In this document: positions 1 through 55,521 of the stretch, one piece after another
How positions within the stretch are numbered: position 1 is the first letter of the stretch
Layout of the letters: every line of letters starts with the position of its first letter
From: Ptychodera flava
Taxonomy: Eukaryota > Hemichordata > Enteropneusta > Ptychoderidae
Reading direction: 5' to 3'
NCBI RefSeq assembly: GCF_041260155.1
Contig: NW_027248277.1
Location: 25,060,322 to 25,124,321 of the forward strand
Length of the DNA: 64,000 nucleotides
The notes under the pieces: generated by a model
Databases searched by the model: none
Told to the model about the DNA's origin: nothing
What the model saw: only the letters and a program-made list of their open reading frames with translations
Translations under genes and position numbers: made by a program

Positions 1-287
1 CTTGTCAGCAACCATTTTGAGCATTTTAATTGTTCATAATTGACGATGTCTGGTTCCAAATTTCAATGTTGACGATAGCAATGTGTCAGAAACGTACTTT
101 GATAGTACAAGCAAAATTATCATTAGTGGAAAGTCTTATTTGTTAAATCTGGATATCGGAGCTGATAATTTTGGAAAGCTGTCTCACGGTAATATATAGT
201 ACCTCCTTTGATAAGTAATTTCTTGCACACTGTATACCTAATATTTGACTCCTCTGTTTATTGCACTTTCAATGCGGGGACAACCAG

Positions 288-2184
288 ATTACCAAGGTCC
301 AGTTAGCAATGGTCAGCACAGCAGCACAGAACAGATACAAGACTCAGAAAGCAAAATAAATGGATATCTGAATGACATGGAAGATCATCGTTCATTAATT
401 ATTGGCGTTGGTGTATTTCTTGTCCTACTGGTAATCGTAAATGTCATAATCTATGTAGTGTGTCATCGAAGAGGAAAAATAACAGTAAATAAGAGGTTGG
501 TTTTCAGATAGTTTGTTCTTATTATTCATGTTGACAGATAGATCAGTGACTTGATGTGTAGCGCAATAAATGACATTAATTCTTACTCCAAGAATATAAA
601 AGTCATCTATATGCAACAAAATTATTGTCTTTTCATTTAACTGGTATCACCTAGATGTGTTGGTCGCCGCCTAGTTCACACAACAATATCAAGTTCACTA
701 TTTACGTCATACTCTGTATGCAGTAAAGAAATCTCACGGTGTTCATTGGAGTTAAATATCCTAATTAGCTTGTTTATAACATTTTCCTCACTAGACAACG
801 AGATGGACTGGTCTATAGACAAAGAAACGGGGTAAACATTTCCTGTTTGCTAAATTTGCTGTTCCCATAACAAAACCCATGAAATTGTCGAGTTTGCCTA
901 GCCATTTCTTATCTGTTTATTTTTTGTCTGTTATTTACTTATTCATTTACTCATTTACTTATTTTTATTTATTTACTGGGACATTAGAGTCGCATAGTCT
1001 ATTTCATCCTTTTGTTTGTATTTTTTAGGAATGTTAACTATGAGAATGCTGATGAAGCTGAAGAAAGAACTGACACTTCGGCAATGTTTGGTAAGATAAC
1101 TTAGACTTTATAAGTAAAAGTACGAGCTAAGTGAAAAGTACTCTAACATAGGATTTACTTGATATGTCGTTTTCCAGAGCTATTACTTCATTGATGCAGA
1201 ATCACATAGGAGCATATTAAACGTAAAACACATCGAATACTCTGTATATGAATTGGTTTCAAACATTAAGGCGGTCTTCAGAAAATGGTTTTCAGGTTTT
1301 CTATATAAACAACCTAACCCTAACCCTAAATTTGTCGGTGTCATTTTGGTAACAGAATGGTCAGAAGTTTATCAGGCTTTACCACGGCAGCGTAAAATAG
1401 TTTCGTAAAAATCACAATGTATGCACTCCAACAATAGCATCATGTCCGCCTGCCAGTATGAGTCTGCTAATATGCTTTGAGTTTGCCCAAATATATATTG
1501 GGCGGTGCTTCAATTGCAACACACATAATGCTACTCTGAACCGATGAATAACCTTGCTTTCTTTGTTACTAAATGATTGTTTATTTTTTTCTAGGCTCTC
1601 CAAGTGACTCTGAGATGGCTGATGTAGGATTAAGGGTGACTACTGATAAAACAAATAAGAGATGTCAAACAAACTTGAAGAATTTTGATGATGAAAGTAA
1701 CGGAGATGAGGGCAACAGAAATAGACATGCTCCAGAATATGCACAGGTTTACAAGACAAGAAAGAAGAAAAAGAAGACAATTCTTCCTCTATACTCCGAC
1801 GTAACTGGAAATGGTGAGACTTCGACTAATCAATCCCACAATGCACCTGGAGAGGATTCTCATTACTACACACTCGAGGAAGTTGAGGACAACGAAACAC
1901 GCTTTACAAGGGCGCAAGGATTATCGGGAGTAATGCATAATAGTAAAGCGGTTTCAGGTGGTGATGAATGGGCAGATGAGGAGGCAGATTACAATGTTGT
2001 CGATAGGACTGGGAAATCGTATAAATTCCCATTCGGTGATAGTGAGCCTGTTAATTATGAGAAAATCGAAATGGGAAAGGAGGATGTTCCTACCTATGAG
2101 GACACGCATTACAACACGTTGAACTTTGGTCCCCAACGGCTTGCTTCCAGCAAAGTATCACACTATATCTCTCAAGAACATTAG
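288..2184 (+). CDS. Receptor A: CED-1/Draper/MEGF10-like EGF-repeat receptor, 3' part only
   Basis: Only the last three coding exons are in the window: 288-495 (membrane exon, entered in phase 1), 1029-1090 and 1595-2184 (tail to the TAG stop). Phases join exactly (1, 2, 1). The first exon encodes a short acidic stalk, a membrane helix (LIIGVGVFLVLLVIVNVIIY) and a basic stop-transfer CHRRGK. The second encodes the NYENA motif. The last encodes a tail with tyrosines in EYAQV, PLYSDV, HYYTLEEV, DYNVV, NYEKI, TYED and HYNTL, plus HYIS near an extended C-terminus that receptor B lacks. The EGF ectodomain exons must lie upstream of the window. Family members act at the plasma membrane in engulfment; ligand and role here are inferred. 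Receptor B is its close duplicate. Confidence 0.8.
795..831 (+). other. Candidate 37-nt cassette exon of receptor A
   Basis: The 37-nt segment has an AG acceptor after a pyrimidine-rich stretch (TTTTCCTCACTAG) and a GTAAAC donor. Joined after AAGAG of the membrane exon it reads QRDGLVYRQRNG. Its length is not a multiple of three, so the next exon would be read out of frame and stop within three codons. Skipping it joins the membrane exon to NYENA in frame. It is identical to 50308-50344 in receptor B. No counterpart was seen in receptor C. Use of this exon is inference. Confidence 0.4.
1312..1329. repeat. Short interstitial telomeric repeat
   Basis: Three near-perfect CCCTAA units sit inside the last intron of receptor A, within an extra segment of about 30 bp (1306-1336) that is missing at the matching place in copy 2 (about 50815). 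TTAGGG is the usual animal telomere repeat. A small insertion like this is typical of break repair or telomerase-primed filler. Confidence 0.65.
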
Positions 2185-2729
2185 TTTCTGTACAATGGAA
2201 TTCCGGTACATGTCTACTTGTGTAAAGATTTGTCAAAAGCGGATATCTTTTTCCACCAATACATATATATACCATTGGAGTCACAGGGACAAAATGTGCA
2301 GAAAAAAAGCGATTAGATAATTCTCAGGATAACTCATAGATTTTGAACATAGGTCATCTATGTTTAGAGGTTAACTACTGCCAGTAATCCATGATTTGGC
2401 TCTTTGATCCTCTGTGCATCCTATGGAACAGTTTCTATATCCTATAATAGTAATTATATGAGATATTGTACAGATGGATATGAACATTGTCACATGTGGA
2501 TCAAATCATCTTGTAGAAAACCTTTTCAATTCTAAACTTTGATATTTGTACTCCCATGACAATCACAGATGTTGCTCAGTGTTGATATTCCATATGCGTT
2601 CTTCTCTCTGTTATAAATATCTTGGTAGTCCTATTAAACAGTTTTTTTGTCCTTTGACAGTAATGCATGGTTTCCATAGGCTTTTAGCATAATCATATAG
2701 GGATTCTATTATCTTTAGGAATTTGTACA

Positions 2730-2821
2730 AAAATAGATCCCAAAGTAACTAAACTGCATTCAGGATTGACATTTTAAAATGTCAAACCTGAATGCAGTTT
2801 AGTAATTGTGGGATCTATTTT
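2730..2821. repeat. Near-perfect 92-bp palindrome downstream of receptor A
   Basis: Two arms of about 45 nt, from ATAGATCCCA to TGGGATCTAT, meet at ATTTTAAAAT. The same palindrome is present in copy 2 at 52217-52305, so it predates the duplication. It lies about 550 nt past the receptor stop and may be transcribed as part of the 3' UTR. It could be a small palindromic MITE or a structured RNA element. Confidence 0.7.
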
Positions 2822-3536
2822 ATCCATATAATTATATGGGCTGAAAAGCTATGTACAGTTAACACTTAATCTATTTTAAAGCCATGCAACCTTGCAATGT
2901 AAAGATATATACTTGGACCAAGTTAAACATCAAAATTACTAGTCAATAGTGTAGAAAAGGCATGTCTTTGTCACCCAAAAGGCAACAAGTATTTTCTTTT
3001 ACATGAAGTTGCTTTTGATAAACATGTTTATGTTATTGTGAAAGTAGGATTGTTGAGTGTTGTTAATAAACCACTCAGCTGAACGCCTCGATAGCAATAT
3101 GCTTATTGCTACATTCTACGTGTTTGGTCATCACTCCTCATCAAGTTTTCATTTTCACTTCCTCGATATTACGTCATTCAAGCAATATATGTTAGCTTAC
3201 ACAGGACTGGCAAACAATGGATTTAGATTTGTTCACTTCTGCATTTGACGAACACTCTTCAATGAAATATTCAGTTTGCTATGGTTTAACATTGACAGTA
3301 CCAAATGAAGAGAAATGATATTTGTAAAGTAATAACAGTGGATAGTTTAACTAATGTCGTTTTTTATTGGTAAATGTTAGTTTGTCTTTTCGACCCTCTA
3401 TATATTTCCTTTGACGTTTTTGGCTCTTGGTGCTTGAGATAATCAAACTTGTTTTTTCAGTAATGTCTTTCTGCAATGCTTAATTTTTACATTACCGGTA
3501 TGTTATTAAAATGCATCTTTTTGAATCAATGTTCAA

Positions 3537-3542
3537 AATAAA
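3537..3542 (+). terminator. Candidate poly(A) signal AATAAA for receptor A
   Basis: AATAAA lies about 1.35 kb after the stop codon and is conserved at 53022 in copy 2. An ATTAAA near 2633 is an alternative. No transcript evidence is available. Confidence 0.3.
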
Positions 3543-5964
3543 GCCATCACAAGTGTGAATAAACAACATGTATATTTATACAGGATCGTGTAACGTTTTT
3601 CAAGAAGAAAATGTATTAAACATTCTACCTTCCTTGTTTATTATATTTGTTAACGCTTTCACAAAAAAAGTTTTTTTTTTCCGATTCCGTTGTTTTCTGT
3701 GTTAAAATTTGACCTCTGCATGTGGAAAAGGGAGGAAAGATTTTCTAGCATCTGTAGGGAGATCTGTAAGTCTACCTGAACTAGCGTGAAATAAATATTA
3801 ATTTGAAAAGGTCACAGGTGTATTGTTGGTATGGTAGATACAATACAAGTCTGTTTCATTGTCTTTATTGAATGTTACGCACTTATTTTTAAATGGAATT
3901 TACAAAAAATGAATGTTTTTTTCGTTGTGACTACATTGTCACAATTGCTTGCTGCGGAAATAAAATATGAATGTAGAATAAGGAATGATTTGAGCATTCT
4001 ACTTCAAAACACTCCACTCCGTCATGCCCCTCATTACAGAGTCGTGTAGTGTCGGCAGTAGGGAAACTCTACATGCTGTCTAAATTGAGGTTTTGCCTAC
4101 ATTGTCGGGTGTAACAATTGGCGAATGGTTATAATCTGTAACAAGTAAGTTATTTGTCGGAAAGTTGAAAGATTGTCTGGAAAGAGCTCAGATGAAGTGG
4201 CAACAAAACCGTACACCCCAAAACATCCCATTGACTGTCAAGAGTTTATCATTTGCAAGTTTATGTGTGCGGATCTGTTGATGTTCTTTGATTTCGTCTG
4301 ACCTTTTTCAAGACAATATTGCAAATTTCGCAGAGTCGATTTCTTTTATTATTGACTTATGACCCAGGTTGGCTTGTGTTTCTCAGTACTTATGCGAGTA
4401 ATATGTCCGAAAGTGTTTCAGTCTGTCGATATATACTCAGTCCTTCAGGGACTGTGTTATAAATATACCAGTTCGCATTTATAAACTCGCACTCAATGTT
4501 GAGATATCTCCGACTATTTCGTATGGTAAAGTGATTTTTCTATTCCTTCAATGCTTTACATCAGGCAATCAAAACATGGGTTGCTTAACGCCTGTGGACT
4601 TATACAGTTTATACCACTCATGGTCACGTGACACATTGTTCTTACCGTACGTTATTATAGCAACACCAATTGTTCTTATGCAAATAGGCAAACCGTTACG
4701 GTTCATTGATATAAAAATTAGTAAACCGTACAGTTATTGAACAGACTACAAACGTAATATTTCTTTCTTTTTGTATCAATGCACGCGTAAGGGTTTACTT
4801 ACCTAGATACGAACGAAAATCAAACATCTGGCAGATTGTACACGTGGGAACTTTTGATGATCCAGAAAAATTACATTTCAATGACAACTCATCATCGTGT
4901 TTATCTTAAGTGGAAATATGGCCTGATGAACTTTTATGCGAGGTTGCGAAACGTAGCGGTATCTATTGAGCTACAGTGAGACAGTAACTCTTCAACGTTT
5001 ACATCAACCTTTGTAACAGGTTGTGGGGCCTGTAAAGTGTTAGACAGATTGTTGATCTGGAAATTGCTGATATGCTAGTACGTGCGGAATCCTTCGTCAG
5101 GACGATGGCCAGTGCATTCGTTAATTAGTTTTTTATCGAATCCCTTATTCATACAAAGAAGTTGCTGCTGCAACCTGAATTTAATGAAAATAATATTGAA
5201 AAATATTGCCGTCAAAAAGGAATGGCATTTTAGGGAAATGTAATAAAATCCATCACTTCAAATTCCGTTCAAATGTTAAAACCCAGCGAGTGGGGTAGAC
5301 CCACTGCGTCGAGTGTTTCAAAGATTATCATGTCACATTAAACTGGCCTTTAAAAACCACGATTGAAGAAATAATAATGGTAACAGTTATGCCGGAAAAA
5401 TGTAAGAAAATAATTGAAACTAACCTGCCAGAATGGCCTGTATGATATCCCGATACTCCACATATTCACAAATGTGGTAGGATCTTGAATATTTTGCTGC
5501 TTTTTAACTTCAGTTATGTTAAGTTTCTGGCTTCCGATCCGACCCCGTGCATATAGCACAGACACGCCTGACCTGGTGTACTTGTATGTATTTTGACGTA
5601 CTCGAGATTCTTGTATTTCAGTCAATTGTGCACTGTTCATGGGAGCAGGAAATCTATCACGTTCATGTTTTGCGTTAGTTTGAAAATCTTGCTGTCATCT
5701 AGTAGTATAGCTGCAAAATTGTAGCGCTAAGGCGAGGCATTAAGTGAGTTTTGGTTTTTTCGACCTCGCTCACAAGTAGCGCTACAATGCCAATGGCCCT
5801 GTAGAGTTCAAAATAAGCGCGTCGCACAGGTCGCGGCGTGTTAATGTGAAATCGTACATATATATTGCATTTGGTCGTGCCGATTTTTCACTGCCGAAGA
5901 CTAAACACTATACTACACCAACTTTGTCGTTGATCGCGTTCCGAAAAACAGGAGCGTGTTTCTG

Positions 5965-6001
5965 GGAGCCGCCATTACCGGAAGATGGTAATGGCGGCTC
6001 C
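5965..6001. repeat. Perfect 15-bp-stem hairpin
   Basis: GGAGCCGCCATTACC pairs exactly with GGTAATGGCGGCTCC across a 7-nt loop. It lies in a segment of copy 1 (about 5920-6100) that is replaced in copy 2 by an (AC)n(TA)n microsatellite. Confidence 0.7.
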
Positions 6002-6895
6002 AAGAAATTATATTTCTATATTAGAAATGTATAATTTTATTTTATTTTTCGCCGTTGAGTTTACTCAGGGATTGTGGCCATTTTGAATGTATATATATTC
6101 AACGATCTGTTACACTAGAATCAAGATTTACACGGTGACCCATGATTTTTTATTCGTCATTTTGAAGGATTCCTTGAAGAGAGTTTGAGCATAAGTTTAT
6201 ATATTTCACCTTCGAGTCCCATATTACCTCATTGGTACTATAATCAGTATTTATAGAAATATTTTGGTCTTTCATCAAGCCCATGTAACTTAAGAGATCT
6301 GATGTGATCTTTCATTCATGCTGGTTTTACATCCTCAAAGTTTTATATCATAGGCTCGCATATCGTCTCTGTTGACGATTTTATAGTGGCAGATTTTATT
6401 TTTCAAACCAGTATGTTGTATTCAACATTGCATTTTTTAATTATTTCTCGGGCAATTGAAGTTTCCCTGTGACGTGTTCTGAAAAAAAGCGATATTACAC
6501 ATAACTGTCAGTTTTCCTAAACCCGTATTTGCGAGTTGTCTCTTTTTGTAGATAGCCAATTTATTTATCGTCTTATTCATCGATAAACGTACACGTAGGA
6601 TGACTGTGAATTTGTAATTACGAGTGCACTGTAAGTAAACAGCAATGGTGTTCAAGTGACAGTCAATTCCAGTTCTGTTCGTTAACTTGCATTTTGTGAC
6701 TGGATGCCTGACGACGTGAATTCAAATGTGATAAATGTGATAGAAGATTTATTAGGTTGCCAGTGTTTCTTTATATTTATGAAACTAAGATAACTTAAAT
6801 ATGGTTTAAACTGTGAGCACTTCTCCTGTGCTGTATTGTCAAAGTAGATAAGTGTTTGTTTAATGTTTGTCGTACAAGTGACATGCACTGTGTCA

Positions 6896-6950
6896 ATGGC
6901 TGCCTATGGCAATGCTATAGATTATTGCAAAGTGGACGCTAAAAAGAAAG
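6896..6950 (+). CDS. Candidate first coding exon of an unidentified gene
   Basis: An ATG opens 18 codons (MAAYGNAIDYCKVDAKKK) and ends at an AAAG/GTACAA donor in phase 1. Copy 2 has the same exon at 56760-56817 with one extra in-frame codon, several substitutions, and the same start and donor. Frame-preserving change on this scale suggests coding sequence. No later exon was found, and no function is assigned. Confidence 0.35.
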
Positions 6951-7802
6951 GTACAACATTTCAGATTTGTCATTTTTTATTTGTTGGATCTATCACCTTT
7001 TTACGTTTTTGTTAACTGATTCTCCGTGTACTTGACATTATGATATTGAAACGATAAATGAAATGTTAAGAAATTTTTAGCTGTACTTATTCTTGTGTGG
7101 TCTGCATTCTCAAATGTGTGAATGGATCCGAGTGCCAAGTATCTAACATTAAAACATTCAGGACTCTCTTTTGCTAAAAAATCGTCAAAGTGTTGCTCAG
7201 TTGTTGGCCATCAAAGTTCCTAGCCAGAAAATGCTACATACAAACTATTCTTATACGGTCATCCAACAAGGGATAAGCTGATTATCCTTACTGAAGACAA
7301 GTTTAAATTATTCTTCTTGCCAGAGAAAGTCAAATTTTTGATTTCCATGTAACTGTGTTTATATCATTCACAGAATACACTGATATTATTGTTAATATGT
7401 TTTTATTCACCATACGTTTCTAAATGGTTGTTTTGAACATTATATATGGAAAAACATCGTGCGTCTTCCATATTTCAAAACACCCTAACAAGTGAAGTAT
7501 TTGGAATGAGATCGAAAGCGGAATATGTCACTTGTCAAAATTCCGTGTCTATCCGGCTTTGACTTATAACAGTGATTCGTATTATGTATCACTTCATACA
7601 ATATTAGACAATTTTGGGACCAATCCTGACGGGTGTAGCATGCTAGCAGGGTACGCTTACCCATTCCGGACACCTGGTATCACCACTAAATATCAGTGGT
7701 TCAGGATGGTCCTACTTAAATTTGTAAATCTCAAATGTCCCATGGACCTGGTAATGTATTACCTTAAATGAAAATGATTATTGGACAGTTTAATGTCATA
7801 TT

Positions 7803-8881
7803 TAGACTTGGTTCAAGTCGGTGAATTAAAAAAAAATAAAATCATTTATAATAGTTTCTCTTGTGTCTCTCCTATTTCGTACAAACCTATCCGGAATTTG
7901 GCAGCTCACGCCAGGTTTTCCAAGCTATTGAATGCGTCGAGTTTGAGTCTGCGCAGTAGTGAGTTAGTTTCTGCCGGATTCACCGACTTGGACTTCTTGC
8001 AAGTACAGGCGGTGAGACGGACTGTGTACACAGTGACGTAGAGCAAATACAAAATGATTGACAGCCCCGCCGTTATTCTGGCCAATAAGAAGAACGCATG
8101 CTCTGCATGCATTCAAAAGTTTGTTGTCATCTCAGTGCAAAGCTAGACATCGAGTACGTTTTATATCTGGGCGAATAATGGCATCAAGTTCGTACATCAA
8201 CTGCGTTTTACAACTGATCGGTCGACCATCGCTAATCATGCGAGATTACCAAAGAAAGCTTGTTGAGAGTTACATTGAGGGAAAAGATGTGTTCGTCTGC
8301 GCACCAACCGGCAGCGGAAAATCACTGACATACGAAGTCGCCCCACATTGTTTTGATTTCCATCGCTTTGGGCACGTAAGAGAACAGGCTACAACTGTAA
8401 GGACGGTGTCTTTTTTCATCCTTGAATAACCGGCAACGATTTTCGCATTTTGCAACATGGGCCCCACACACAACACAGATATTTTCACGCGTTTTCGGTG
8501 ATACAACAGAGGTCGTGCTGACTTTTGTGGGAGTGATCGCACTCGACATTTTGTCAACAACGCCATGTGAGTTTTATGCACGTCTCGTTTGGGTCAATTG
8601 GTAACTCCTCCCAATGTGTAAAATTTAGTGATGTCATCTTATGAATAATATATGAGTAAAGAAAACGTCATCTCATGAATAATTTATATCAACGCAGATC
8701 GTGCAAGAAAGCCAAGTCTGTGATTCCGGGTGAAACTCCGCTGCACAGCGTTCACTCCACTTATCGCGTTCACCCTACTCATCGCGTCCACTCACGCGCG
8801 CGTTTCACATGAAAGCAGAATACAAATCATTGCGTTCACTCCACTCAAACATTCACAAATCACAGACTTGAACCAAGTCTA
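7803..8881. mobile_element. Non-autonomous Mutator-like DNA transposon carrying a helicase gene fragment
   Basis: The 1079-bp element has terminal inverted repeats starting TAGACTTGGTTCAAGTC (24 bp counting mismatches). A perfect 9-bp direct repeat, TGTCATATT, flanks it at 7794-7802 and 8882-8890. Nine-base target duplications are usual for Mutator-like elements and possible for Merlin. A second, inner inverted repeat lies near 7974-8004 and 8700-8720. The interior carries a RecQ-like helicase first exon (8178-8375) and no transposase. Copy 2 lacks the element, so it inserted into copy 1 after the duplication or was lost from copy 2. Confidence 0.75.
8178..8375 (+). pseudogene. Captured first exon of a RecQ-family DNA helicase
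   Basis: From ATG in the context AATAATGG, 66 codons read without a stop and end exactly at CAC/GTAAGA, a good splice donor in phase 0. The protein has the N-terminal helicase layout: MRDYQRKLVESYIEGKDVFV, then Walker A APTGSGKS at about residues 43-50, then LTYEVAPHCFD. RecQ helicases normally run several hundred residues, and nothing after motif I is present. The exon lies wholly inside a 1.1-kb transposon, so it is best read as a captured fragment, perhaps with its promoter. It may still be transcribed. Confidence 0.7.
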
Positions 8882-9150
8882 TGTCATATTGTGTACATGT
8901 ACATAAAGTGATAGACACGGAATTGGTCACGTTATAGACATGGACTGTGTCGCATGACTCATTGAGAACTTATCCGTTAATCCTCTTTGGGCTAATATTT
9001 CCTTTATAAAGGCAACAGAAAGAAATTTTTAAAATTAAAAAAAATATTTCTTGTTATATAAAATGAAAATATTGATATATTATTCTGAAATGGGAAATAT
9101 TCAATATATATTTGTAAAGTCACTGGACAAAATGCTTGTATATTATAAAA

Positions 9151-9302
9151 ATAACGGGCGACGCGCTGACCATAAACGTTTATTTGTGGGCAAGGGCGAG
9201 AGGAAAGCCAAAAATTAACGGGCGAGGCTTGCCGAGACCGTTAATTTGGCTTTCCTCGAGCCCGCCCACAAATAACGTAATGGTCAAAGCGGAGTCTGTT
9301 AT
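9151..9302. repeat. Foldback palindrome about 150 bp long
   Basis: Arms of roughly 70 nt running from ATAACGGGCG to the complementary CTGTTAT end pair through TTTGTGGGC, GAAAGCC and AATTAACGG. It sits near the left edge of the 2.9-kb stretch (9122-12013) found only in copy 1. It looks like the hairpin end of a small transposon. Confidence 0.65.
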
Positions 9303-9749
9303 TTCCATTATATTATCAGCGAACACAAGAAAACCGTTCAAAATTTCCGAAAATTTCAGAGAGCGAACGACAACTGGGCCCCGAAACTGTGCAATACCGA
9401 CGTACTGTCACGCGCGCTGTAAAAAATTGGCAAATCCGGAGATGTTTTCAGAAAAAGTATCTCAACTTGACCTACAAGTGCTCCATTTTATTTTGTGATT
9501 GATTATGATTGACTTTTGAGCTGTAAAGTTACGATACTTTGAGTTGTTAATCTTAATATTCATATTCACGGGCCTGTAAACAAACCATTACTGTGTATTG
9601 TGGTCAGTCACATGGTTCAGCTCGACCAAACAAAATGCGACAGACAGGGCATGGTAATATAATGACTTACATGGAACACAATATAATTTGCCATACGTAA
9701 AATATATATTTGTATATTGAACATTTTAATACGTTGATATGCGTAGCTT

Positions 9750-11855
9750 ATATAGGCCCGGGCTAGAGGGGGTCTACGCGCACCCCCCCCCCATCCCACA
9801 GGATAACAAACCTGTATTTTTCAGAATCATTGGGATCCCTAGAATGCGAAATGAATTTTAACAGAAAACATATAGGGATGCAATGGCTGTTACAGTCATG
9901 TTTTAAAGGGTACCGCAAATCACGATTTTGCAATCCACATGCATTTGTGTCAAATCTGTCTTCTTGTAAGTCATCTGCTGAGCTTACTTTTTAATATAAC
10001 CTCACTTTTTGATATCATTAGAAAGGCAATATCATTTTCTTGAAGATGACATATTGTACTATGCAATATTTTCTACAGTTATGTGAAGGATGACCAAAAC
10101 TTACCCAATACCCCAAATTTAACATCGCAAATTACAGTAAATCTCAAATTCTACTTAATATTTAGCTAGATATAATACAATATGCAATACTTTGTATCAA
10201 ATCTGTTTTATTTGGTACAAGAACATGTAAGAAATATGAAATAGACTTTTAACAGGAAAAATATTGGGACTCTACAGCTGTAACAGTCATATTTTGAAGG
10301 GTACTGCAAAATCACAGTGTTGCCAACTTGCATGCATTTTTGTTAAACCCGTCACCTGCTGAGCTTGTTTTTGAATATAACCTAACTTGTTAGGTATCAT
10401 CAGAAAGATGATTTACTAATCTTTAAAAAACATATTGTAACATGCAATATTTTGTATAGTTTTCATGAAATATGACCAAAACATTCCCCATACCCCAAAG
10501 TTTACATAGAAAATTGCAATCATAGCTAAAATCAAATTCTACCAATTCTTTAACTAGACATATAAAATCTGGCTTTTATGGTATGAAATCTATTTCATTC
10601 GGTAATGGGTCATGTCAAAAAAATAAATAGACTTTAAAAAAAAAATACTGGAATTCTGTTGTTGTAACAGTGAGATTTTGAAAAGTACGTCAACTCTCAG
10701 TATTACTAACTCGCATGCATTTTTGTTGAATCTGTCTTCTTTAAGTCATCTGCTGAGCTTGTTATTGAATATAATGTTAGTTGTTAGGTATCATTAAAAA
10801 GGTAATTTATTAGTCTTAAAAATGACACATTGTAACATGCAATATCTTATATATATATAGTTTTTATTAAATATGACCAAAACGTACCCCATACCCAAAA
10901 GTTAACATCAAAAACTACTGTCACAGCTAATGTCAAATTCTACCAATTTTGTAGGTGACATAAAAAATTGGGCAATGTTTTGTATTAAATCTGTTTTATT
11001 TTGTACTGGGTCATATCAAAAATATGAAGTGGGCTTTTTACGAAAAAAATATTCGAATTGTATAGCTGTAACAGTCGTAATCTGATGGGTATCGTAAAAT
11101 CTCAGTATTCCTGACTCGCATGCGTTTTGTTAAATATGTTTTCTTATAAGTCATCTGCTGAGCTTGTTATAAAATATCACATGGCTTTTCAGGTATTATT
11201 AGAAAGGTAATATACTATTGTTATATGCAATATCGTCTTTAGGTTTCATGAAATATGACCAAAACGTACCCCATACCCCAAAGTTTACATTGAACATTAC
11301 TGTCATAGCTAATTCGAATTCTACAAATTTTTCACCTAGACATAAAGAATTGGGCAATTTTTTGTATGAAATCTGTCTTATGAATCTGTTCCAATAAAAC
11401 AGATTTCATACAAAGCATTGCATTTTTTATGCCCAGCTAAAAATTGTTAGAATTTAAGATTTACTGTAATTTGCAATGTTAAACTTTTGGGTATTGGGTA
11501 AGTTTTGGTCATATTTCACAAAAAAACTGTAGAAAATATTGCATAGTACAATATGTCACCTAAATAAAAATGAAATTGCCTTTCTGATGATATCAAACAA
11601 GTGAGGTTATATTAAATAATAAGCTCAGCAGATGACTTACAAGAAGACAGATTTGATGAAAATGCATGTGGGTTGCAGAATCGTGATTTTGCGGTACCCT
11701 TTAAAACATGACCATAACAACTATTGCATCCCCATATTTTTCTGTTTAAATTCCATTTGGTATTCTAGGGATCCCAAGCGTTCTGAAAATACGGGTTTGT
11801 TATTCTGTGGGGGTGCATGTAGACCCCCTCTGTCCCACGGACTAATATCTATGCA
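9750..11855. mobile_element. Foldback-type element with long inverted repeats and internal tandem units
   Basis: Inverted arms of about 440 bp (9750-10210 and 11395-11855) both begin near AGAGGGGGTCTAC and hold the same run of landmarks: GGGATCCCTAGAAT, TTAAAGGGTACCGCAAA, GTCATCTGCTGAGCTT. The left arm is the first of four direct units spaced about 380-405 bp, marked by CTGCTGAGCTT at about 9975, 10350, 10750 and 11150. The fifth unit is the inverted right arm. No transposase ORF is visible. Long arms made of tandem units recall foldback and Galileo-like elements; the superfamily is not established. It is absent from copy 2. Confidence 0.7.
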
Positions 11856-12451
11856 GACCAAGAGTATATGTAATGCAGATCTTTGCACACCAAGTGTACA
11901 CTATACGTATGCATTTTATGTGTATACGTACGTGTATACTTAACGTATTTGACGCATGCACAGAGTCAGTATATGTGTATATATTGTTGCATATCAAGCA
12001 TTTTGCCAAGTGGGTGAAGCTAGAATATTTGTGAATGATTTACAATTAGTTGAAAGAACTAGTTTTCCTGTTAATTCTGCCTGTTATTGGTGCATATACT
12101 AAAATTGAGTGTATAAAATTATGTGTTGATGAATACTCTGTAAGCCTAGATTTAATTTATTTGTCCGACAATCAATTGCCATAGTATGTTAAGTTTTTGT
12201 AAGTTTTATATATGTTCAGAAACAATGAATGTTTGGCAGCATTACATTTTTTTTGTACTGTCGAAAGTACAAAAAATGCCCTGTATTGAAAACAAATATT
12301 TTTGGAATCATGAAAAGTATGACAACACATATATCATTAAATAATTTAGAAATATTGTCTGCGTTTATATTTGAAGAAAAGACTTGTCATCGAAAATTTT
12401 TATGTTAAATGAATGATCTATGGTTAGTTGATAACTCACTCGAACGCTCAT

Positions 12452-13052
12452 TAGCCTTGTACCAACTTTGAATAAAATCGGTTGAGACGTGCCTGAGTTA
12501 TGGCTAAGGAAATGAAAAATCGTAACAAAATGACCGACATGCGGCCATATTGGATCATATCGTGAAACAAGTTGACGTGCATATGTATGACATAGGACAA
12601 TGTTCTTGTACCAACTTTGAATAGAATCGGTTGAGATATATATGCCTGAGTGATGGCTCCGTACATGAAATATAAATTTTACTATAACCCAAACGGGATT
12701 CGAACCCCCACACACTCACGGCAACATCCCCTAGCTGCTAGGCCTCACACAAAACATAACAAAATGGCCGAAGAGTGGCCAACTTTGAATAAAATCGGTT
12801 GAAACATGTCTGAGTCATAGCTCTGTACATGAAAAAGTCGTAACAAAATGGCCACACGGTGGCCATATTGGATCGTATCACAAAAATTTATGTGCATATG
12901 TATGACATATGAAGTAATCATTGTACCAAGTTTGAATGAAATCACTCCAGGCATCTCTGAGATACTGCGTGAACGGACAAACGGGCGGACGCACGGACGG
13001 GCGCAAATGGCAAAACCTATAAGTCCCTCCGCACGTTGTCAGTGGGGACTAA
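12452..13052 (+). repeat. Interspersed repeat cluster with terminal hairpin and CTAA end
   Basis: About three units of roughly 170 bp share CCAACTTTGAATAAAATCGG, CGTAACAAAATGGCC, GGCCATATTGGATC and GTGCATATGTATGACATA. A GACGCACGGACGG linker follows, then a hairpin (AGTCCC...GGGACT) ending CTAA before T. It interrupts copy 1 after ACTCGAACGCTCATTAG, where copy 2 has unrelated sequence. A tRNA-like piece is embedded at 12685-12750. The end resembles a Helitron 3' end, but no TC start was identified. Confidence 0.55.
12685..12750 (-). repeat. tRNA-derived sequence (SINE head or tRNA pseudogene)
   Basis: On the minus strand GGTTCGAATCCC is a perfect internal B box with a T-stem, and CCTAGCAGCTAGGGG upstream resembles an A box. 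The outer ends (GTGTGAG and GTTTGGG) do not pair, so it is not an intact tRNA. Confidence 0.5.
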
Positions 13053-14873
13053 TAAAAAGTATACTTTCCACAGCTTAACATAGGTTTGCCAGATTTCACA
13101 TGCTTTATTTCTGAACTTAAAAAAAAAACACACAAAATTTATACAAAAAGAAATTACTTGTCTCACATGGACATTGATCTTTGCTTTGGCTGCGCTATGG
13201 ATTATAATTTTTTTATTCTCAATAGTGGTATCTAGAGTGCTTAGAGTATGAAATCTTGCTACGAAATACAAGTCTTGGGAAAAATATTGTGTAATAAGTA
13301 CCGTCTTGTGTCAAAGATAAACTATGTGGACGAGACACACGTGTTTATTCCAGTGCTCTTGTTGTTGACATTTAAAACTGACCATACAAGTGGTATTGAT
13401 TGGGATTTTGCACGATACTCGTGTCATGCGACCTTGAAGTGTATAAACTATGTTCTGTTCAACAATTCAAGTTTGTCAATGTCCAGATTAGTAAAATAAT
13501 GAGTATAGAGAAGTTATACCACAAAGTTCATAAGAAGCAAGTCAAAGTTTAAGATGTTTTGCTATCTGATTTGGCGATACAAATTACATGTTGCCCGTAG
13601 GGAAATTTTAGCTAAATATATAATGAATGTAATGTATTTTCTGCTGAATCTTGGTTGAATTTTTCTGTGTATCTTGTTTGTCTGGTTGTGTTTTATTTTT
13701 CTCTATTGGTATGATTATATCACTTAAATGTTTTGAAAATTGCTAGTAAATGCAATGAAATGGACTTTGAACGTGAATAGACTCGGTCTGACTAATAAAT
13801 GCTAAAATATAATTCAGGTATAAAAAATCAGTAAATTAATGTTTCACTTCTTTTTAAACTCTACTTATACTAAGAGCTGTGGTTTGTAAACTTTCCAACC
13901 CTAATTTACCGCACTTCCTTCTCTTTCAGTCCAGTGAATGGACAAACATCTAAAGTAATGTGGAAAATATAAAAGTTCAATGCTCCTCACAACAAATGCC
14001 TCGAAAGTGGATTTTTACAATATTCTATTCACTTAATATTGCTATAGACTCACGCTGACGTTCGTTGTGCAAAGTTAGATTTTATCGTCATTTTTTCTAA
14101 CACTTTGTTTTTTATTTTTCCCCATACCGTCAAAAACTAGCAAAGGCAACGTTGAATACTCATTGTGGTTAATTCTCTCTCCATTACCACAATTAGCATG
14201 CTGACGTCTGATACGTACTCTGAAATTCTACGGTCTGAATCTTCTGGAAAATTTGAGGAAAACTTTGAAAGAAAATTTCAGTTCAAAGGTGACTGATAGC
14301 TTTCGTTATCGCATGAGTTGTCATATTTTTGTGAATACGGTTACGTGTTACCAATTATATTAAAATACACACAAATACCGGTAAATTTGAAACAGTTAGC
14401 TAGGGTAAATGAGCATAGAAATGTACCTAATGTTTTCTCAATATATGACAAGCACTAAATAGACAGTAACTTTTATCACTGCTTTACCAATTCTAAGTAT
14501 TCTTTATACTTCCACGAGCATGTCAAAATATAACCTCTTTAGCCGTCAACAAGACAATTTACATTTAAGCTGCACTATCACTGTTACATGTGAATTCAGC
14601 TCAGAGCTGAATTAACTTTTTACCCACAACAATACAGTCTTCGCATATATCAGCAGAGTTGCCTACCTGAAAAGTTTGTATTCAAATATGATTTCACAGT
14701 AGGAGAAGAAACTGAATTGGGTATTAAAATAAATAGGTGTGAATGCTCTTTGAAAGTTACAGTTTCTGAGCTTTAAGAAATAAGAAAATACATTAGTAAA
14801 TAAGGTGTTGTGAATAAGAAAATTTTCTGTATCCTTTAAAAAACGTGTACAAAAATAATGTTAAACTTAAGAT

Positions 14874-25964: not shown

Positions 25965-26029
25965 GAAGTATACAGATGTTCTCGTGGGAAATTACAGTGC
26001 TCAATGCAAAAGCAGAGCGTTATAATTAA

Positions 26030-28352
26030 GCAGATTACTTCAAGTACAAAGTAATGAAATCTATTACTTAATTTCATGCATCTTGCAATCCCTCAGATAG
26101 AGTGAAAGGATTACTAGCTCGACACTCTTACATATATGATTGGGACGAACCATTCTATTTGTAGGTGTGTTTAAAATTCGATAAATAATATTTGTTTTGG
26201 TAGCGACATTTTGAAACCAACTCAGAGCGTTTGTTTAACAGTGTAGCTTTCTCAGCATTGATAGTATGCAGCTTTTCTGATATACAAAGATTACATCGCT
26301 TGTTCATGTTAGAGTAGCTCAATGCTTTATCAATGATTGACCATGAAATGTCAAAGTCTTTTCCATTATTTCTTAAGTTCCATACATATTTTGATAACTC
26401 GGTGTCGCTTTTGTATCTCTCGTTGCGGAACGATTTATGTGATTAGTGTAGCGCGTCTTGAGGGTGTTATCAGTGAAGCCGATATAAACCCTCTCTCCGT
26501 TGTCCTCCGTTTATACGTTTGCCTTGTACACCACACTTTGACTTGACAGTTACCCTTCAAGGGACATGCCGACTTAACCCTGCAATTGCAATCAGCTGGT
26601 TGGTCCTTACGCTGTTCTCCGGAAATTACCCTCTTATTGTGCGATTTGATTATACTTGCCATATTCCTCATACAGCTATAACTCACTTTAATTGTGTTTC
26701 TGTTGAAGATCTTGTGAAGTTTAGACCCCTTTGGAAAATATTTATCGACAAGTTGGAGAAATTTCCTGCCGATGTTAGTTTCCACGTTCTTGCTGAAAGG
26801 GGGTTGAACACCGTGATGTGACGCTTCCTGTTATTGCTTCTCCTCGCTGATTGGTTGGTCTTGGTGAATTCAATTAGCTCGGTGTAACCGCTTGCCTTTA
26901 GCGCTGTATTGTATCGCCCTTTATATTTATCAAAGATGCCCTTATCACTAGATATTGTTGAGATACGTTTGCTTATTGCGTCAGGTATTGATTAATAATG
27001 GTCGGCGGGTGATTAGACTGCTTATGGACATACATTGTTTGGTCGTTTGGTTTACGATACGGGTAGAACTTGCCGTCGTTCAGATTATATGTCACATCCA
27101 AGAAGTTTGTAATCTTCTGGTTTGTCTCGATCGTGATTTTCAGGCCAATGTCACGAAATATCTTTGTGATTTCCTGTCTCATCTTATCCGCCTTGCTGGC
27201 CGTGATATTTTTGAGTACACCAAGCCCATCATCCCGGTATAAGCCGATATGATTCTTATCATACTTTTTGGTGAGTGTATTAAGTATGTACAGACCACCA
27301 GTTCGCATATTTCAGCACCGTCGAAGCTGCCCATCGTCACATCGAATAAATCCTTATCTCTCTTTTAATCCAGGGTGTTATGTCGTCAAAAAGGAGGGTC
27401 TTCCTCGAGTGTATTATGATATCAATCACTTCATCAGAAATTGAAGTATATTCTCTCGCAAAATCAATTGATTTACACAAGAGATCTTCTGAGATAGATG
27501 GATAGAAGTTGACAATGTCAAATGTAATGAATCTACATTTTGATTTACCTCGTATCCCATTGAACCAGTCAATGACAGCTGATGAATTCCTCCATTGGTT
27601 CACATACGTACGTAATCTAATATCATTGTTGATAGTGTCAAGTAATTGTTTACTTACTTTGCCCATCTCGCTTTTGGTCGGGTTAATAAGTCTACATGTT
27701 GGATTGTTCATGAAGTTGTCTTTGTGATCTTTAATGTAATGAAGGCCTGGCGCTTAGCGAGTGTGTCCATTCTTTCTGCAATATTGAGTTCACTTGCTAT
27801 TTCCTTCGCCTTACCATTGATTCGTTGTAAACGCTGTTGCAAAGGCGGGGTGTACAAGGCCAACGTATCAACGGAGGACAACGGAGAGAGTATTTATATC
27901 GTCCTCACTGATAACACCTTCAAGACGCGCTACACTAATCACATAAAATCGTTCCGCAACGAGAGTATACAAAAACGACACCGAGTTATCAAAATATGTA
28001 TGGAACTTAAGAAATAAGGGACAAGACTTTGACATTTCATGGTCAATCATTGATAAAGCATTGAGCTACTCTTATATGAACAAGCGATGTAATCTTTGTA
28101 TATCAGAAAAGCTGCATACTATCAATGCTGACAAATCTACACTGTTAAACAAACGCTCTGAGTTGGTTTCAAAATGTCGCCACCAAAACAAATATTATTT
28201 ATCGAATTTTAACACTACCTACAAATAGAATGGTTCGTCCCAATCATATATGTAAGAGTGTCGAGCTAGTAATCCTTTCACTCTATCTGAGGATTGCAAG
28301 ATGCATGAAACTTAAGTAATAGATTTCATTACTTTGTACTTGAAGTAATCTG

Positions 28353-28355
<3 letters not shown>
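26030..28355 (-). mobile_element. Penelope-like retroelement with inverted arms, degenerate
   Basis: The minus strand encodes reverse-transcriptase segments in order: 27711-27337 (FDIVNFYPSI, RKTLLF), 27308-26973 (YRDDGLGVL, FLDVTYNL, PYRKPNDQ) and 26785-26435, with a Cys-rich CNC...CPLKGNC linker before a GIY-YIG-like region. This layout is typical of Penelope-like elements with a C-terminal GIY-YIG endonuclease. The end of the coding region plus the 3' flank is repeated in inverse orientation, giving arms 26030-26540 and 27843-28355 of about 510 bp and over 90% alike by eye. The coding region is fragmented, so the copy looks inactive. Confidence 0.7.

Positions 28356-28446
<91 letters not shown>
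28356..28446. repeat. (TA)n microsatellite right of the Penelope-like element
   Basis: About 90 bp of pure TA directly abuts the right arm of the retroelement. Confidence 0.95.
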
Positions 28447-45865: not shown

Positions 45866-48800
45866 ATGATGAACGTTACAATGTTGTCAGCTTTGATCGT
45901 CTTTCAGTCGTTCTGTTTTCAAACTTATGGTGCATTACGTCGAGAAATTGGACCTGTTGATCGAGACGTTCAGTATGCATGTCCATGGTACAATATATCA
46001 GAGTAAGTAGAATTCATTTGGGTGTCCCTTGGGAGACGTATCCGGAAAACCACAGCCTTGCCATACAAAGCCATTACTCAGACCATTCACCAGTTCTGTA
46101 CCTTTCACTAGATTACGCTTCACTTTTAACCAAACGACAGTGTAAGTTCTGCTGTACTGTCTAAGGTGTATCACAGGCAGAATGATATGATATTGTTGTA
46201 AGGTTTGAGAGATGGACATAGTGGGACGTTTTCCCTTAAAAAAAATTAAGGTGAGTACTGTTGATTAATGTTTGGATTTCTCGTCATGTTGTGATAACCA
46301 AGATGGGAATATGCAGCGGTGCAACGGTGTTTTATCATCGCCGCAGAACCAGAGGATGATGACCCCGGAACCTGGTCGCGATCGATACCCCACAGCTTGC
46401 AGCACTGCTGCGTCTTCACAGCCAGTGATAACCATGCTATAGATGTCGTGTCAGATTTTTAAGTTTCGTTTGCCAATGCTGCTGCATGAGCTCTGTCAAG
46501 TGCCAAGTAGTCATAGACAGCTTCAATGGTGGCTTTTCCCTTTGCTTGTAATCAATTTTAATCTCAAAAATGCTTAAGCGTGTAGGTCTGATTATGTATT
46601 TATAATTTTTTTTTCGTCACAGAGGTGGAACAGTATATCGATGTTGTTCTGGATATTTTTTAGAAAATCGCAAATGCATAGGTATGTATCACTTGAAGCT
46701 GGCATAATATATCCATAAGAATATTTAGATTGTATCTGTAATTGTAACAGTGACCTGTAAGCCAGGCAGCAACCAATTCATTTTAACAATAGAATTAGAT
46801 ATTAATACGTTGACAAAGTAAACTGATAAGATATCAAACTTTAAAACTGATTTCGCACATAAAGGTCATTTATCATATACATAATTGTGATTTCCAAGAA
46901 AAGGTTTTCTTTTACAATTTTAATCACATATTAAAAATAGCAATACAAATACTAAACCCAGAGAAAGAAATTCCCCTTAGTTGCAAGGCAGGGAACTTTC
47001 ACTAGGCAAAATTTTTGACTTCAAAACAATAAATAAACAAAATTCTGTACATTTGTCAAATATGTTAAGTGTACGCTCACATATACTGATAAAATACATA
47101 AGTGTACACTTGTTGTGCAGAGATCTGCATAGTATATACTCTTTTTCTGCATAGATATATGCTACGTATATCAATGTATTTAAATGTTCCTTATACAAAG
47201 ATATACGTTACGTATTCATTAAATTTTTGTTCCATATAAGTCAAGTTACTGACCGTATATCAACCATTTGCCCAGAGTTTTCATTCTCAATTTCCAAGTG
47301 CTATGCGAAAAAGGCAAACGCAATTTAATAGTATTTAAACTTGAAGGTCTAATTTCCTCCAAAAGACAATATAACAAAATTTTCTACATCGATGATATAT
47401 GTATAATACACGTTAGAATGTCAATATTATACAAAATAAGACAGCAACTTTTTACTTTATTCAGGTCAGCTGCCTTACATTAATCGAGTTCATCTTCTTT
47501 TTCTATTTTGTCTAGTAATATTTTAATCTTTAAAACAATATCCATGTGGGAGTTTTTAATAATGATTCACGTTTAATTAGTCAAGGAGTTAATTTGAACA
47601 CTTTCAAGTTAGTACGTCAAGTTAACTCAGGTACCATTTTTTATAAATTAATCCAAAAATATAATGAATATTATCACATTTCGTAAACATTTCCTTGCGT
47701 ACGGTAACCAGTCATCATATTGATTTCAGTCAAAAGTATCATTCTATAGTGCATATTCCTCGGAAGAGCCCTCCCCTGGCAATTCATCTATGCCTTCCTA
47801 TGTCAGCTCCTTGTATCGTTTGCATCCGATTCGTTCCACTTTTATTTTCTTCACTTGTTCAATACCTGGAATATCCTTTAGAAAGAGTAAAATATGAATG
47901 ATGACAATGTTATCAGTGACGTATGGATTTCAAAGAAAATACATATTTACTGAAATTTGAATGTTTGTCAGCATGTTTTCAATCAGTGTGTTACATTATT
48001 TAATTTTGTTCTTTTTATTTTTGCTCATATGTTTATTAAGCTTGTCCAAAAGGCTCATATGGATATCGTTGTGCACGAGAATGTAAGTGTAAAAGTCATG
48101 AACGATGTGATCCCATTTATGGATGTAAGTGTAAACCCAGTAAATGGGGATATCATTGTGAGAAATGGTGTAGTCCATCATGCAATGATATTGAAGAATG
48201 TGATAAAATTAATGGAAAATGTAGGTGTCCTCCGGGAAAGTGGGGAGAGAGATGTGAACATCATTGTCAATGTTACACACATGCAACGTGTGATAGACAA
48301 ACTGGTAAGTGTCAGTGTGAACCAGGCTGGATTGGAGACAAATGCACAGACTGTGATGAAAGCAAGGTTTATAACACAGGCAAGAAGTTTTGCACTGACA
48401 GATGTCTACACTGTTTCAGTAGTGAATCTTGCAGTGTTACTGATCCTGCTAGCTGTGACTGTACGCCTGGATGGACAGGAAGTAAATGTGATATATCAAT
48501 TCCTGAAACATGTGACTCTCGTTTCAATAGTGATATTTGTAGAAACCATAATGACTGTGATGACTTTCACGGCTGTAATGTGAAAACCTGTAAATGTTAT
48601 GGATGTATTAAAGGTTACCGAGGGATATACTGTAATCTGCCATGTGGGCATGGCAAGTATGGATATGGTTGTGAAAATACATGTTCTGATGACTGTAAAT
48701 CGGAAAAATGTCACCACATAACTGGGAATTGTACAGCATGTGCTGTTGGTTACCATGGTGAAAACTGTGAAGAAGAATGCCCAGATGGTTACTATGGTCA

Positions 48801-51619
48801 TAACTGCCTAAAGAAATGTCAGTGCAATGACAAGATGTGTAATCACAAATCAGGATGTCCATGTGGAGAGGATTGCACAACAATGCCAAGTAAGTAATAG
48901 GTTCAATAGGAAGCGTGTGACTTTTACTGCTATATAGATGTTTGAACTTGAACACATCTGGCCCTCCATACTCTTAGTTACATAAATTTGCAATATCAAA
49001 AGTCGATTTAGTGAAAACACGATTGGAACTAATTTTGGATAATTGGATTTTCTTAATTTTCAAATTTCTCAAAAGTGTTTGGTGCCCTATAGCTGAATAT
49101 TGCAATATTACAAATTACTCATAAAACAAGTGTGTAACTTAAAAAGAAAAGCAGAAGAGGTTAAATTTGCAGATTTTATCGACATTACTTTACCATCCAA
49201 TTATCCCAAATTAGTTCCAATCGTTTTCGAATTAATTTATGTAACTTTCAATTTGTTTCAGTCAGTAAACATGATACATAGAAAATAAATTCATGGCAGA
49301 GCTATATTTGTGTTGTGATTGAGTGTGGAATTTTATGGGAAAAGTGAAACATCTGCTCTTTTTTTCTGTTCACCATTACAGGAAGATTTATACGAACATT
49401 TTGTAAATTGAAAAATGGTTAAATTTACAGTATGTGCTACAGCCTGCAGATATTTTTAAAGCAATTCGAATTTAAATGGCTTGAACACTACTTAGCTTTT
49501 CAGCAACCATTTTGAGCATTTTTATTGTTTATAATTGACGATGTCTGGTTCAACATTTTCAAGATGACAATAACAGTGCGTAAGAAACGTGCTCTGATTC
49601 TACAAGCAAAATTATCATTGGTGGAAAGTCTTATTTGTTATAACAGTATATCTAAGCTGATAATTTTGTAAAGATGTCTTATCAGCAATATATAGTGCCT
49701 CCTTTGATAAATAATGTCTTGCACACTGTAAACTTAATAAATAACTCCTCTGTTAATTGCACTTGCAATGCGGGGACAACTAGATAAACAGGATCCAGTT
49801 AGCAATGGTCAGCACAGCAGCACAGAACAGATACAAGACTCAGAAAGCAAAATAAATGGGGATCTGGATGACATGGAAGATCACCTCCAATTAATCATTG
49901 GCGTTTGTGTATTTCTTGTCCTACTGATACTCGTAAATGTTATAATCTGTGTAGTGTGTCATCGAAGGGGAAACATAACGGTAAATAAGAGGTTGGTTTC
50001 CAGATAGTTTGTTCTGATTATTAATGTTGACAATAGATCAATAACGTGATGTGTAGCGCAATTAATGAGATTAATTTTTACTCTAAGAATATAAAAGTCA
50101 TCTATATGCAACAAAATTTATAGTTTATGACCATTATTGTCTTTTCATTTTAACTGGTATCACCTAGATGTGTTGGTCGCCGCCTAGTTCACACAACAAT
50201 ATCAAGTTCACTATTTACGTCATACTCTCTATGCAGTAAAGAAGTTTCCCGGTATTAATTGGCATTCAATATCATATTTAGCTTGTTTATAACATTTTCC
50301 TCACTAGACAACGAGATGGACTGGTCTATAGACAAAGAAACGGGGTAAACATTTCCTGTTTGCTAAATTTGCTGTTCCCATAACAAAACCCATGAAATTG
50401 TCGAGTTTGCCTAGCCATTTCTTATCTGTTTATTTTTTGTCTGTTATTTACTTATTCATTTACTCATTTACTTATTTTTATTTATTTACTGGGACATTAG
50501 AGTCGCATAGTCTATTTCATCCTTTGTTTGTATTTTTAGGAATGTTCACTATGAGAATGCTGATGTAGCTGAAGCAAGAACTGACACTTTGGCAATGTTT
50601 GGTAAGATAACTTAGACTTTAAAGTTAAAGTATGAGCTAAGTGAAAAGTACTCTAACATAGGATTCACTTGATATATCGTTTTCCAGAGCTATTACTTCA
50701 GTGATGCAGAATCACATAGGAGCATCATAAACATAAAAGACATCGAATACTCTGTATATTAACCAGGTTTCAAACAATAAGGCGATCTTCAGAAAAAGGT
50801 TTTCACGTTTCCTATATGGTGTCATTTTGGTAACAGGATGGTCAGAAGTTTATGAGGCTTTACCACGGCAGCGTAAAATAATTTTGTAAGAATCACAGTG
50901 TATGCACTCCAACAAAAGCATCATGTATCGCCTGCCAGTATGCTTTGAGTTTGCCCAATATATATTGGGCGGTGCAACACACATAATTCTACTCTGAACC
51001 GATAGATAGCCTTGCTTTCTTTGTTACTAAATGCTTGTTTATCATTTTTATAGGCTCTCCAAGTGACTCTGAGATGGCTGATGTAGGATCAAGGGTGACT
51101 ACTGATAAAACAAATAAGAGATGTCAAACTAACTTGAAAAATTTCGATGATGAAAGCAATGGAGATGAGGGCAACAGACACATACATACTCCAGAATATG
51201 CACAGGTTAACAAGACAAGAACGAAGAGAAAGAAGGCAATTCTCCCTCTATACTCCGACGTAACTGGAAATGGTGAGATTTCGACTAATCAATCCCACAA
51301 TGAACCTGGAGAGGATTCTCATTACTACACACTCGAGGAAGTTGAGGACAACGAAACACGCTTTACAAGGGCGCAAGGATTATCGGGAGTAATGCATAAT
51401 AGTAAAGCGGTTTCAGGTGGTGATGAATGGGCAGATGAGGAGGCAGATTACAATGTTGTCGATAGGACTGGGAAATCATATAAATTCCCATTGGGTGATA
51501 GTGAGCCTGTCAATTATGAGAAAATCGGAATGGGAAAGGAGGATGTTCCTACCTATGAAGACACGGATTACAACACATTGAACTTTGGTCCCAAACGGCT
51601 TGCTTTCAGCAAAGAATAA
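45866..51619 (+). CDS. Receptor B: CED-1/Draper/MEGF10-like EGF-repeat transmembrane receptor, 626 aa
   Basis: Six exons join without a stop into 1881 nt: 45866-46002, 46623-46681, 48041-48889, 49784-49991, 50540-50601 and 51054-51619, with GT/AG at every junction. Residues 1-22 are a signal peptide. Residues 46-65 hold a CCxGY module like the end of an EMI domain. Residues 66-348 are a run of EGF/laminin-EGF-like repeats (CPKGSYGYRC, CPPGKWGERC, CEPGWIGDKC, CTPGWTGSKC). Residues 383-407 span the membrane. The tail has tyrosines at 422 (YENA), 487 (YAQV), 505 (YSDV), 529 (YYTL), 571 (YNVV), 593 (YEKI), 606 and 611 (YNTL). YEKI and YNTL form an ITAM-like pair with 14 residues between, wider than the usual 6-12. 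Family members sit on phagocytes or glia and signal through Src/Syk-type kinases; that role here is inferred. Vertebrate MEGF10 and Draper are longer, with more repeats. Confidence 0.85.
49017..49226. mobile_element. Short Tc1/mariner-type MITE in intron 3 of receptor B
   Basis: About 210 bp with inverted ends ACGATTGGAACTAATTTTGG and the complementary TTAGTTCCAATCGT. The ends match the 684-bp element at 16053-16736. A flanking TA duplication is not evident here, so the outermost bases have probably changed. Confidence 0.6.
50308..50344 (+). other. Candidate 37-nt cassette exon of receptor B
   Basis: Identical in sequence and splice signals to 795-831 in receptor A. Included, it adds QRDGLVYRQRNG after residue 418. 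It then shifts the next exon so that translation ends after four more codons (ECSL), removing every tail tyrosine motif listed for the full-length form. Skipped, the full tail is read. Confidence 0.4.
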
Positions 51620-52216
51620 GACTACATCTCTCAAGAACATTAGTTTCTGTACAATGGAATTCTGGTACATGTCTACTTGTGTAAAGATTTGTCAAAAGCG
51701 GATATCTTTTTCCAACAAAAAAATATTTAACCGATTCATACACATATATTCCATTGGAGTCAAAGGGACAACATTTGCAGAAAAAAAGCGATTGGATAAT
51801 TCCCAGGATAACTCAGAGATTTTTAACATAGGTCATCCATGTTTAGAGGTTAACTACTGCCAGTAATCAATGATTTGGCTCATTGATACTCTGTGCATCC
51901 TATGGGACAGTTTCTATATTCTATAATAGTAATTATATGAGATATTGTACAGTTGGATATGAACATTGTCACACGTGGATCATATCATCTTGTAGAAAAC
52001 CTTTGTAATTCTAAACTTTGATATTTGTACTCCAATGACAATCACATAGTATGACTAGATGTTGCTCCATGTTGATATTCAATATGCGTTCTCCTGTCTG
52101 TAAGAAATATCTTGGTATTCATATTAAACAGTTTTTGTCCTTTGACAGTAATGCATGGTTTCCATAGGCTTTAGCATAATCATATCGAGATTCTAATATC
52201 TTTAGGAATTTGTACA

Positions 52217-52305
52217 AAAATAGATCCCACAGTAACTAATCTGCATTCACTTTTGACATTTTAAAATGTCAAATCTGAATGCAGTTTATGATTGTGGGAT
52301 CTATG
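52217..52305. repeat. Palindrome downstream of receptor B
   Basis: The counterpart of 2730-2821, about 600 nt after the stop. The arms have drifted slightly from copy 1 but still pair around ATTTTAAAAT. Confidence 0.65.
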
Positions 52306-53021
52306 TTAACCATATAATTTTATGGGCTGAAACCTATGTACAGTTAACACACTTAATGTATATTAAAGCCATGTAACCTTGCAATGTTAAGACATATACT
52401 CGGACCAAGTTATACATCATGACTACTAGCCAATAGTGTAGAAAACGCATGTCATTGTCACAAAAATGCAACAAGTATTTTTTTTACATGAAGTAGCTTT
52501 TGATAAACATTTGTATGTTATTGTGAAGTAGGATTTCTGAGTGTCGTTAATGAACTACTCAGCTGAACGCCTCGATAGCAATATGCGTAACTGCCACAGT
52601 CTATTGTTTGGTCATCAATCCTCATCAGATTTTCATTTTCACTTCCTCGATATTACGTCATTCAATCAATATATGTTACTTTACACAGAACCGGCAAACA
52701 ATAGATTTCGATTTGTTCACTTCCGCCTTTGACGAACACTCTACAATGAAATATTCAGTTTGCTATGGTTTAACATTTACAGTACCAAATGAAGAGAAAT
52801 GATATTTGTAAAGTAATAACAGTGGATAGTTTAACTATTGTCGTTTATTATTGGTAAAATTTTAGTTTGTCTTTTCGACTCTCTATATATTTCCTTTGAA
52901 ATGTTTGGCTCTTGGTGCTTGAGATAATTAAACTTCTTTTTTCAGTAATGTCTTTCTGCAATGCTTAATGTTTACATTACCGGTATGTTATTGAAATGGA
53001 TCTTTTTGAATCAATGTTCAA

Positions 53022-53027
53022 AATAAA
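53022..53027 (+). terminator. Candidate poly(A) signal AATAAA for receptor B
   Basis: The position matches the AATAAA at 3537 in copy 1, about 1.4 kb after the stop. Confidence 0.3.
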
Positions 53028-55274: not shown

Positions 55275-55382
<108 letters not shown>

Positions 55383-55521
55383 AACGATCTGTTACACTAA
55401 GACCAAGATTTGCATGGTGACTATGATTTTTATTTGTCATTTTGAAGGATTCCTTGAAGAAAGTTTGAGCAAAAGTTTATACATTGCACCTTTAAGTCCC
55501 ATACTACCTCATATGTACTGT

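Follow-up and report, generated by a model that had tools for sequence, protein, structure and literature searches.

Interlocus gene conversion between paralogues has been described for CEACAM paired receptors (PMC2832619) and for the duplicated sodium channels of newts (PMC8476164). A mosaic of identical and diverged stretches in tandem receptor genes is a routine sign of gene conversion, and spotting it stops identical intron sequence from being taken for a conserved splice switch. Short intervals that bring in an early stop are known as well: poison exons occur in splicing factors. Alternative splicing of a receptor tail has been described for Drosophila Draper-II (PMC8092387). Here, we analysed a stretch of 64,000 nucleotides, referred to below as the window, for which the original prediction had proposed a 37-nt cassette exon inside an almost identical tract shared by two receptor gene copies, arising either from recent gene conversion or from selection on a splicing switch. 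Our analysis suggests, with a probability of roughly 80%, that the intron tract was left behind by recent non-allelic (interlocus) gene conversion, with same-strand tandem receptor copies as the partners, and that the 37-nt interval is a probable chance pseudo-exon.

The window has a GC content of ∼36%, followed in sixteen 4-kb steps, and contains genes with introns, in both respects resembling DNA of an animal. Comparison of the window with itself, from which nine aligned blocks were chosen, revealed a segmental duplication within 1-14492 and 49496-60977, with order and orientation kept and 80–92% identity. The first block holds the end of the receptor gene, with its transmembrane exon and a 62-nt exon, and the long tail exon falls in the next block. 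As parts of this larger duplication, copy 1 (1-2.4 kb) and copy 2 (49.5-51.9 kb) lie on one strand ∼49.5 kb apart, and the gap-free columns of their alignment agree at 92.9%. The window leaves out the extracellular part of copy 1 and includes the preceding EGF-like exon of copy 2. With dN at 0.048 and dS at 0.114 between the two copies (272 codons), the coding sequence in view seems to be under mild constraint. The window also holds a diverged third copy, in which the 62-nt tail exon is readable as it is in copy 2. Read by eye, copy 3 has one frame break in its extracellular part and two in its tail, and it looks like a pseudogene. Neither copy 3 nor the second identical tract described below figured in the original prediction. 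Elsewhere, the window carries a tandem array (62621-63594; 6.3 copies of a 156-base unit) and an inverted repeat of ∼515 bases with 95.6% identity (26021-26532 versus 28364-27849), and the translations of open frames between its arms (26021-28364) gave the impression of reverse transcriptase-like proteins.

Coordinates of the receptor gene copies, the identical tracts and the putative cassette exon in the window
Feature	Start	End	Strand	Remarks
Copy 1 transmembrane exon	303	495	+	Open frame SNGQHSS...IIGVGVFLVLLVIVNVIIYVVCHRRGKITVNKR; acceptor before 303; donor GAG/GTTGGT at 496; helix judged by eye
Putative 37-nt cassette exon, copy 1	795	831	+	AG before 795, GT at 832; acceptor 2.95, donor 1.36
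Tract 1, copy 1	765	1009	.	245 bases, equal to 50278-50522; intronic, after the transmembrane exon and before the 62-nt exon
Copy 1 62-nt tail exon	1029	1090	+	NVNYENADEAEERTDTSAMFG; in frame with the transmembrane exon if the cassette is skipped
Copy 1 main tail exon	1595	2184	+	Tyrosine motifs YYTL, YEKI, YNTL
Tract 2, copy 1	1845	2018	+	174 coding bases, equal to 51304-51477; in the main tail exon
Copy 3	17150	20452	-	Diverged, frame-broken relative; exon order as in copies 1 and 2; matching 542-nt intron at 18891-18350
Copy 2 EGF-like-repeat extracellular exon	48041	48889	+	Pfam EGF_laminin E 9.1e-6; SCARF1 PDB chain E 7.2e-15; borders by eye
Copy 2 transmembrane exon	49799	49991	+	
Putative 37-nt cassette exon, copy 2	50308	50344	+	Identical to 795-831
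Tract 1, copy 2	50278	50522	.	Identical to 765-1009
Copy 2 62-nt tail exon	50540	50601	+	
Copy 2 main tail exon	51054	51619	+	
Tract 2, copy 2	51304	51477	+	Identical to 1845-2018

The predicted translations suggest that the gene encodes an EGF-repeat, tyrosine-tailed receptor. Among six solved relatives, SCARF1 was the best match by sequence to the extracellular exon of copy 2, which carries EGF-like repeats. As in Megf10, Draper, CED-1 and SCARF1, EGF-like repeats (seen in copy 2 only) would be combined with one putative membrane helix and a tail with three YxxL/I motifs, and both tails keep YYTL, YEKI and YNTL. Unlike in these receptors, neither tail contains NPxY or a strict ITAM (YxxL/I, 6–12 residues, YxxL/I), the gap between YEKI and YNTL being 14 residues, and an ITIM-like pattern matches twice in each tail (SHYYTL and VNYEKI). 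Upstream of copy 2, a cysteine-rich readable piece, GGTVYRCCSGYFLENRKCIG, lies at ∼46624-46683 and is perhaps part of an EMI-like exon. A 30-base pattern had no exact match in viral or prokaryote collections, as expected for an animal gene, and none of the 13 stretches in viral contigs that matched a protein pattern of the tail was confirmed.

Copies 1 and 2 share 245 identical intron bases (tract 1), and from there to the next exon they differ only by two one-base length differences in T runs, which bears out the near-unchanged ∼260 bp of the original prediction. The 37-nt interval is likewise identical in both copies, as had been stated, and occurs nowhere else in the window within 3 mismatches. 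In gap-free columns, differences were counted at 0 of 245 positions in tract 1 and at 21 of 268 in the first part of the same intron (496-764), where divergence had been noted; the next intron had 37 of 448 and the tail coding exon 30 of 591. At three exons, the feature borders used for these counts are misplaced by 1 to 3 bases, without effect on the picture. Tract 1 is the longest identical run among the nine aligned blocks, and the next longest, of 174 bases, lies in the same gene. When the differences were shuffled 20,000 times, no shuffle gave a run of at least 245 (mean longest run 71, maximum 190), and when blocks of 25 columns were shuffled, which keeps some of the clustering, 1 of 20,000 did. 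At the divergence of the flanking intron ∼20 differences would be expected in tract 1 and none was seen (P ∼1e-9 under even rates), although such even-rate P values are too small because rates vary along the region.

If tract 1 was homogenised, the event would be no older than ∼15% of the divergence now seen in the intron (95% bound). An imperfect TTTAYT-rich stretch inside tract 1, shared unchanged by both copies, would be expected to change quickly and thus to vary if the tract were old. Searching the window with the intron returned, beyond the intron itself and copy 2, one 28-base match of the TTTAYT-rich part (53463-53436) and four more matches of 17–34 bases (E 0.028 to 0.34). As these short matches are all that the window holds besides copy 2, we rejected tract 1 as a repeat or mobile element. 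We also considered a divergent patch upstream of the tract (716-764, 11 substitutions) and discarded it as an oddity, as the densest 49 columns (start ∼57) hold 15 differences; the mean maximum in shuffles was 9.3.

The second identical run (tract 2), ∼835 bases from tract 1 in the same gene pair, is coding, and a run of at least 174 arose in 4 of 20,000 shuffles of the differences. The earlier statement that the tail exons differ is therefore right for the tail coding exon as a whole but not for these 174 bases. None of the 57 codons in tract 2 differs between copies 1 and 2, silent sites included, and 44 of the 214 codons outside it do (15 synonymous and 29 non-synonymous differences); one codon at the tract border, with a synonymous difference, is in neither set. 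Comparison of copy 3 with copy 1, in contrast, showed differences at 59 of the 174 tract 2 sites (33.9%), against 87 of 234 before the tract (37.2%) and 42 of 134 after it (31.3%). Counted by codon, 38 of 57 differ inside (11 synonymous, 27 non-synonymous), 55 of 76 before (14 and 41) and 30 of 42 after (10 and 20). Because copy 3 differs inside tract 2 about as much as in the flanks, its identity in copies 1 and 2 points to homogenisation rather than constraint, and copy 3 speaks against constraint as a general cause of identity as far as tract 2 is concerned. This outgroup test is weakened, as the frame-broken copy 3 may evolve freely and so mask some constraint in the other copies. For tract 1, the case against constraint is weaker than for tract 2, because the copy 3 intron is not alignable there: the opening stretch of the intron in copy 1 (496-764) has weak similarity to it, matched in score by 2 of 300 shuffles, whereas tract 1 has none (209 of 300 shuffles score as high), nor does the 37-nt interval with 20 bases on each side (300 of 300).

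Most simply, tract 1 is explained by homogenisation, as for tract 2. We infer that one copy served as the template for repair of a break in the other and that the repair overwrote ∼250 intron bases; ∼170 bases of the tail exon would have been overwritten in the same event or in another. The 37-nt AG...GT interval would then sit in the overwritten part, most likely as an ordinary chance pseudo-exon, and its skipping would give a tail in open frame. Recent gene conversion, one of the two alternatives originally put forward, is well supported by the identical runs, their excess over shuffles, the silent-site identity of tract 2 and the comparison with copy 3. Identical runs in copies that differ at ∼8% of intron sites would also be left by mis-mapped reads, and the tracts could be an artefact of assembly or polishing in which both copies were built from the reads of one. 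We consider this unlikely, as the patchwork (0 of 245 beside 21 of 268) and the presence of two separate tracts are usual for conversion. Perfect identity over 245 intron bases might instead mark constraint on another kind of element, for example a structured RNA or an enhancer, a reading that we regard as highly improbable. A search of Rfam with 480-1100 gave no match up to E 1, folding of the tract 1 region was not unusual (z-scores of −0.61 for one strand and +1.48 for the other), so that an RNA element was rejected, and the other identical tract is coding and does not look constrained.

The remaining explanation takes the 37-nt interval for a genuine cassette exon under selection, with inclusion leading to a membrane-anchored receptor without the tyrosine motifs or to transcript decay. 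In its favour, the interval has AG and GT borders, and its acceptor score resembles that of the real 62-nt exon (2.80 in copies 1 and 2; two other acceptors read as real score lower, at 0.75 and −3.67). In the real intron no other pair reaches its scores, and the Draper-II tail offers a precedent for alternative splicing. The donor of the interval (GGG/GTAAAC), in contrast, scores below all seven donors taken to be real, which range from 2.58 to 5.0. When the intron was shuffled, 14.4% of 500 mononucleotide and 193 of 1000 dinucleotide versions contained one or more pairs as good, and the window holds 32 and 44 comparable pairs on its two strands, two of them being the 37-nt interval itself. 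As equally good pairs are common both in shuffled introns and in the window, the borders are compatible both with an exon and with its absence. Its presence in two copies counts as one observation, because it lies inside an identical tract that was probably copied between the genes. In addition, no recognisable cassette was found in the matching intron of copy 3, although that copy is frame-broken and far diverged.

Inclusion of the interval would, as predicted, shift the frame and bring a stop in the next exon of both copies, the translations ending in ...NKRQRDGLVYRQRNGEC and a stop for copy 1 and in ...NGECSL and a stop for copy 2. However, when the two 62-nt exons were shuffled 2000 times each, a stop in the shifted frame also appeared in 1639 and 1594 cases (∼80%). 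The usual threshold for nonsense-mediated decay is a stop over 50–55 nt before the last junction. As the predicted stop precedes it by only 53 nt in copy 1 and by 47 nt in copy 2, at or below this threshold, decay is borderline and not clearly predicted. Use of the exon would lead more directly to a tail-less membrane protein than to decay; a decoy receptor is possible but unsupported. The idea of selection on a splicing switch fared poorly, as the identity spans the whole tract instead of focusing on the exon and its borders and as shuffled introns so often match the splice pair. Overall, a real cassette exon under selection is doubtful. It is more doubtful still that a real exon was passed by conversion between the tandem receptor genes, giving them a common splice switch that would convert a scavenger-type receptor with tyrosine signalling into a decoy without a tail. 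A real exon would mean that a family of likely clearance receptors had an additional step in which decoys are made.

With its short frame-shifting interval and early stop, this locus resembles poison exons and the splice-switched tail of Draper-II. It differs from both in that the splice borders are not clearly above chance and in that the exon is a putative one, read from the DNA of this window. Gene conversion, which we favour, has closer counterparts: as in the CEACAM and newt sodium-channel paralogues, the stretches of highest identity lie within otherwise diverged copies, and in the CEACAM case high identity extends into introns, as it does here. The tracts of the present gene pair differ in being placed in a tail intron and a tail exon, not around the ligand-binding part, and, like the interval, they were read from the DNA.
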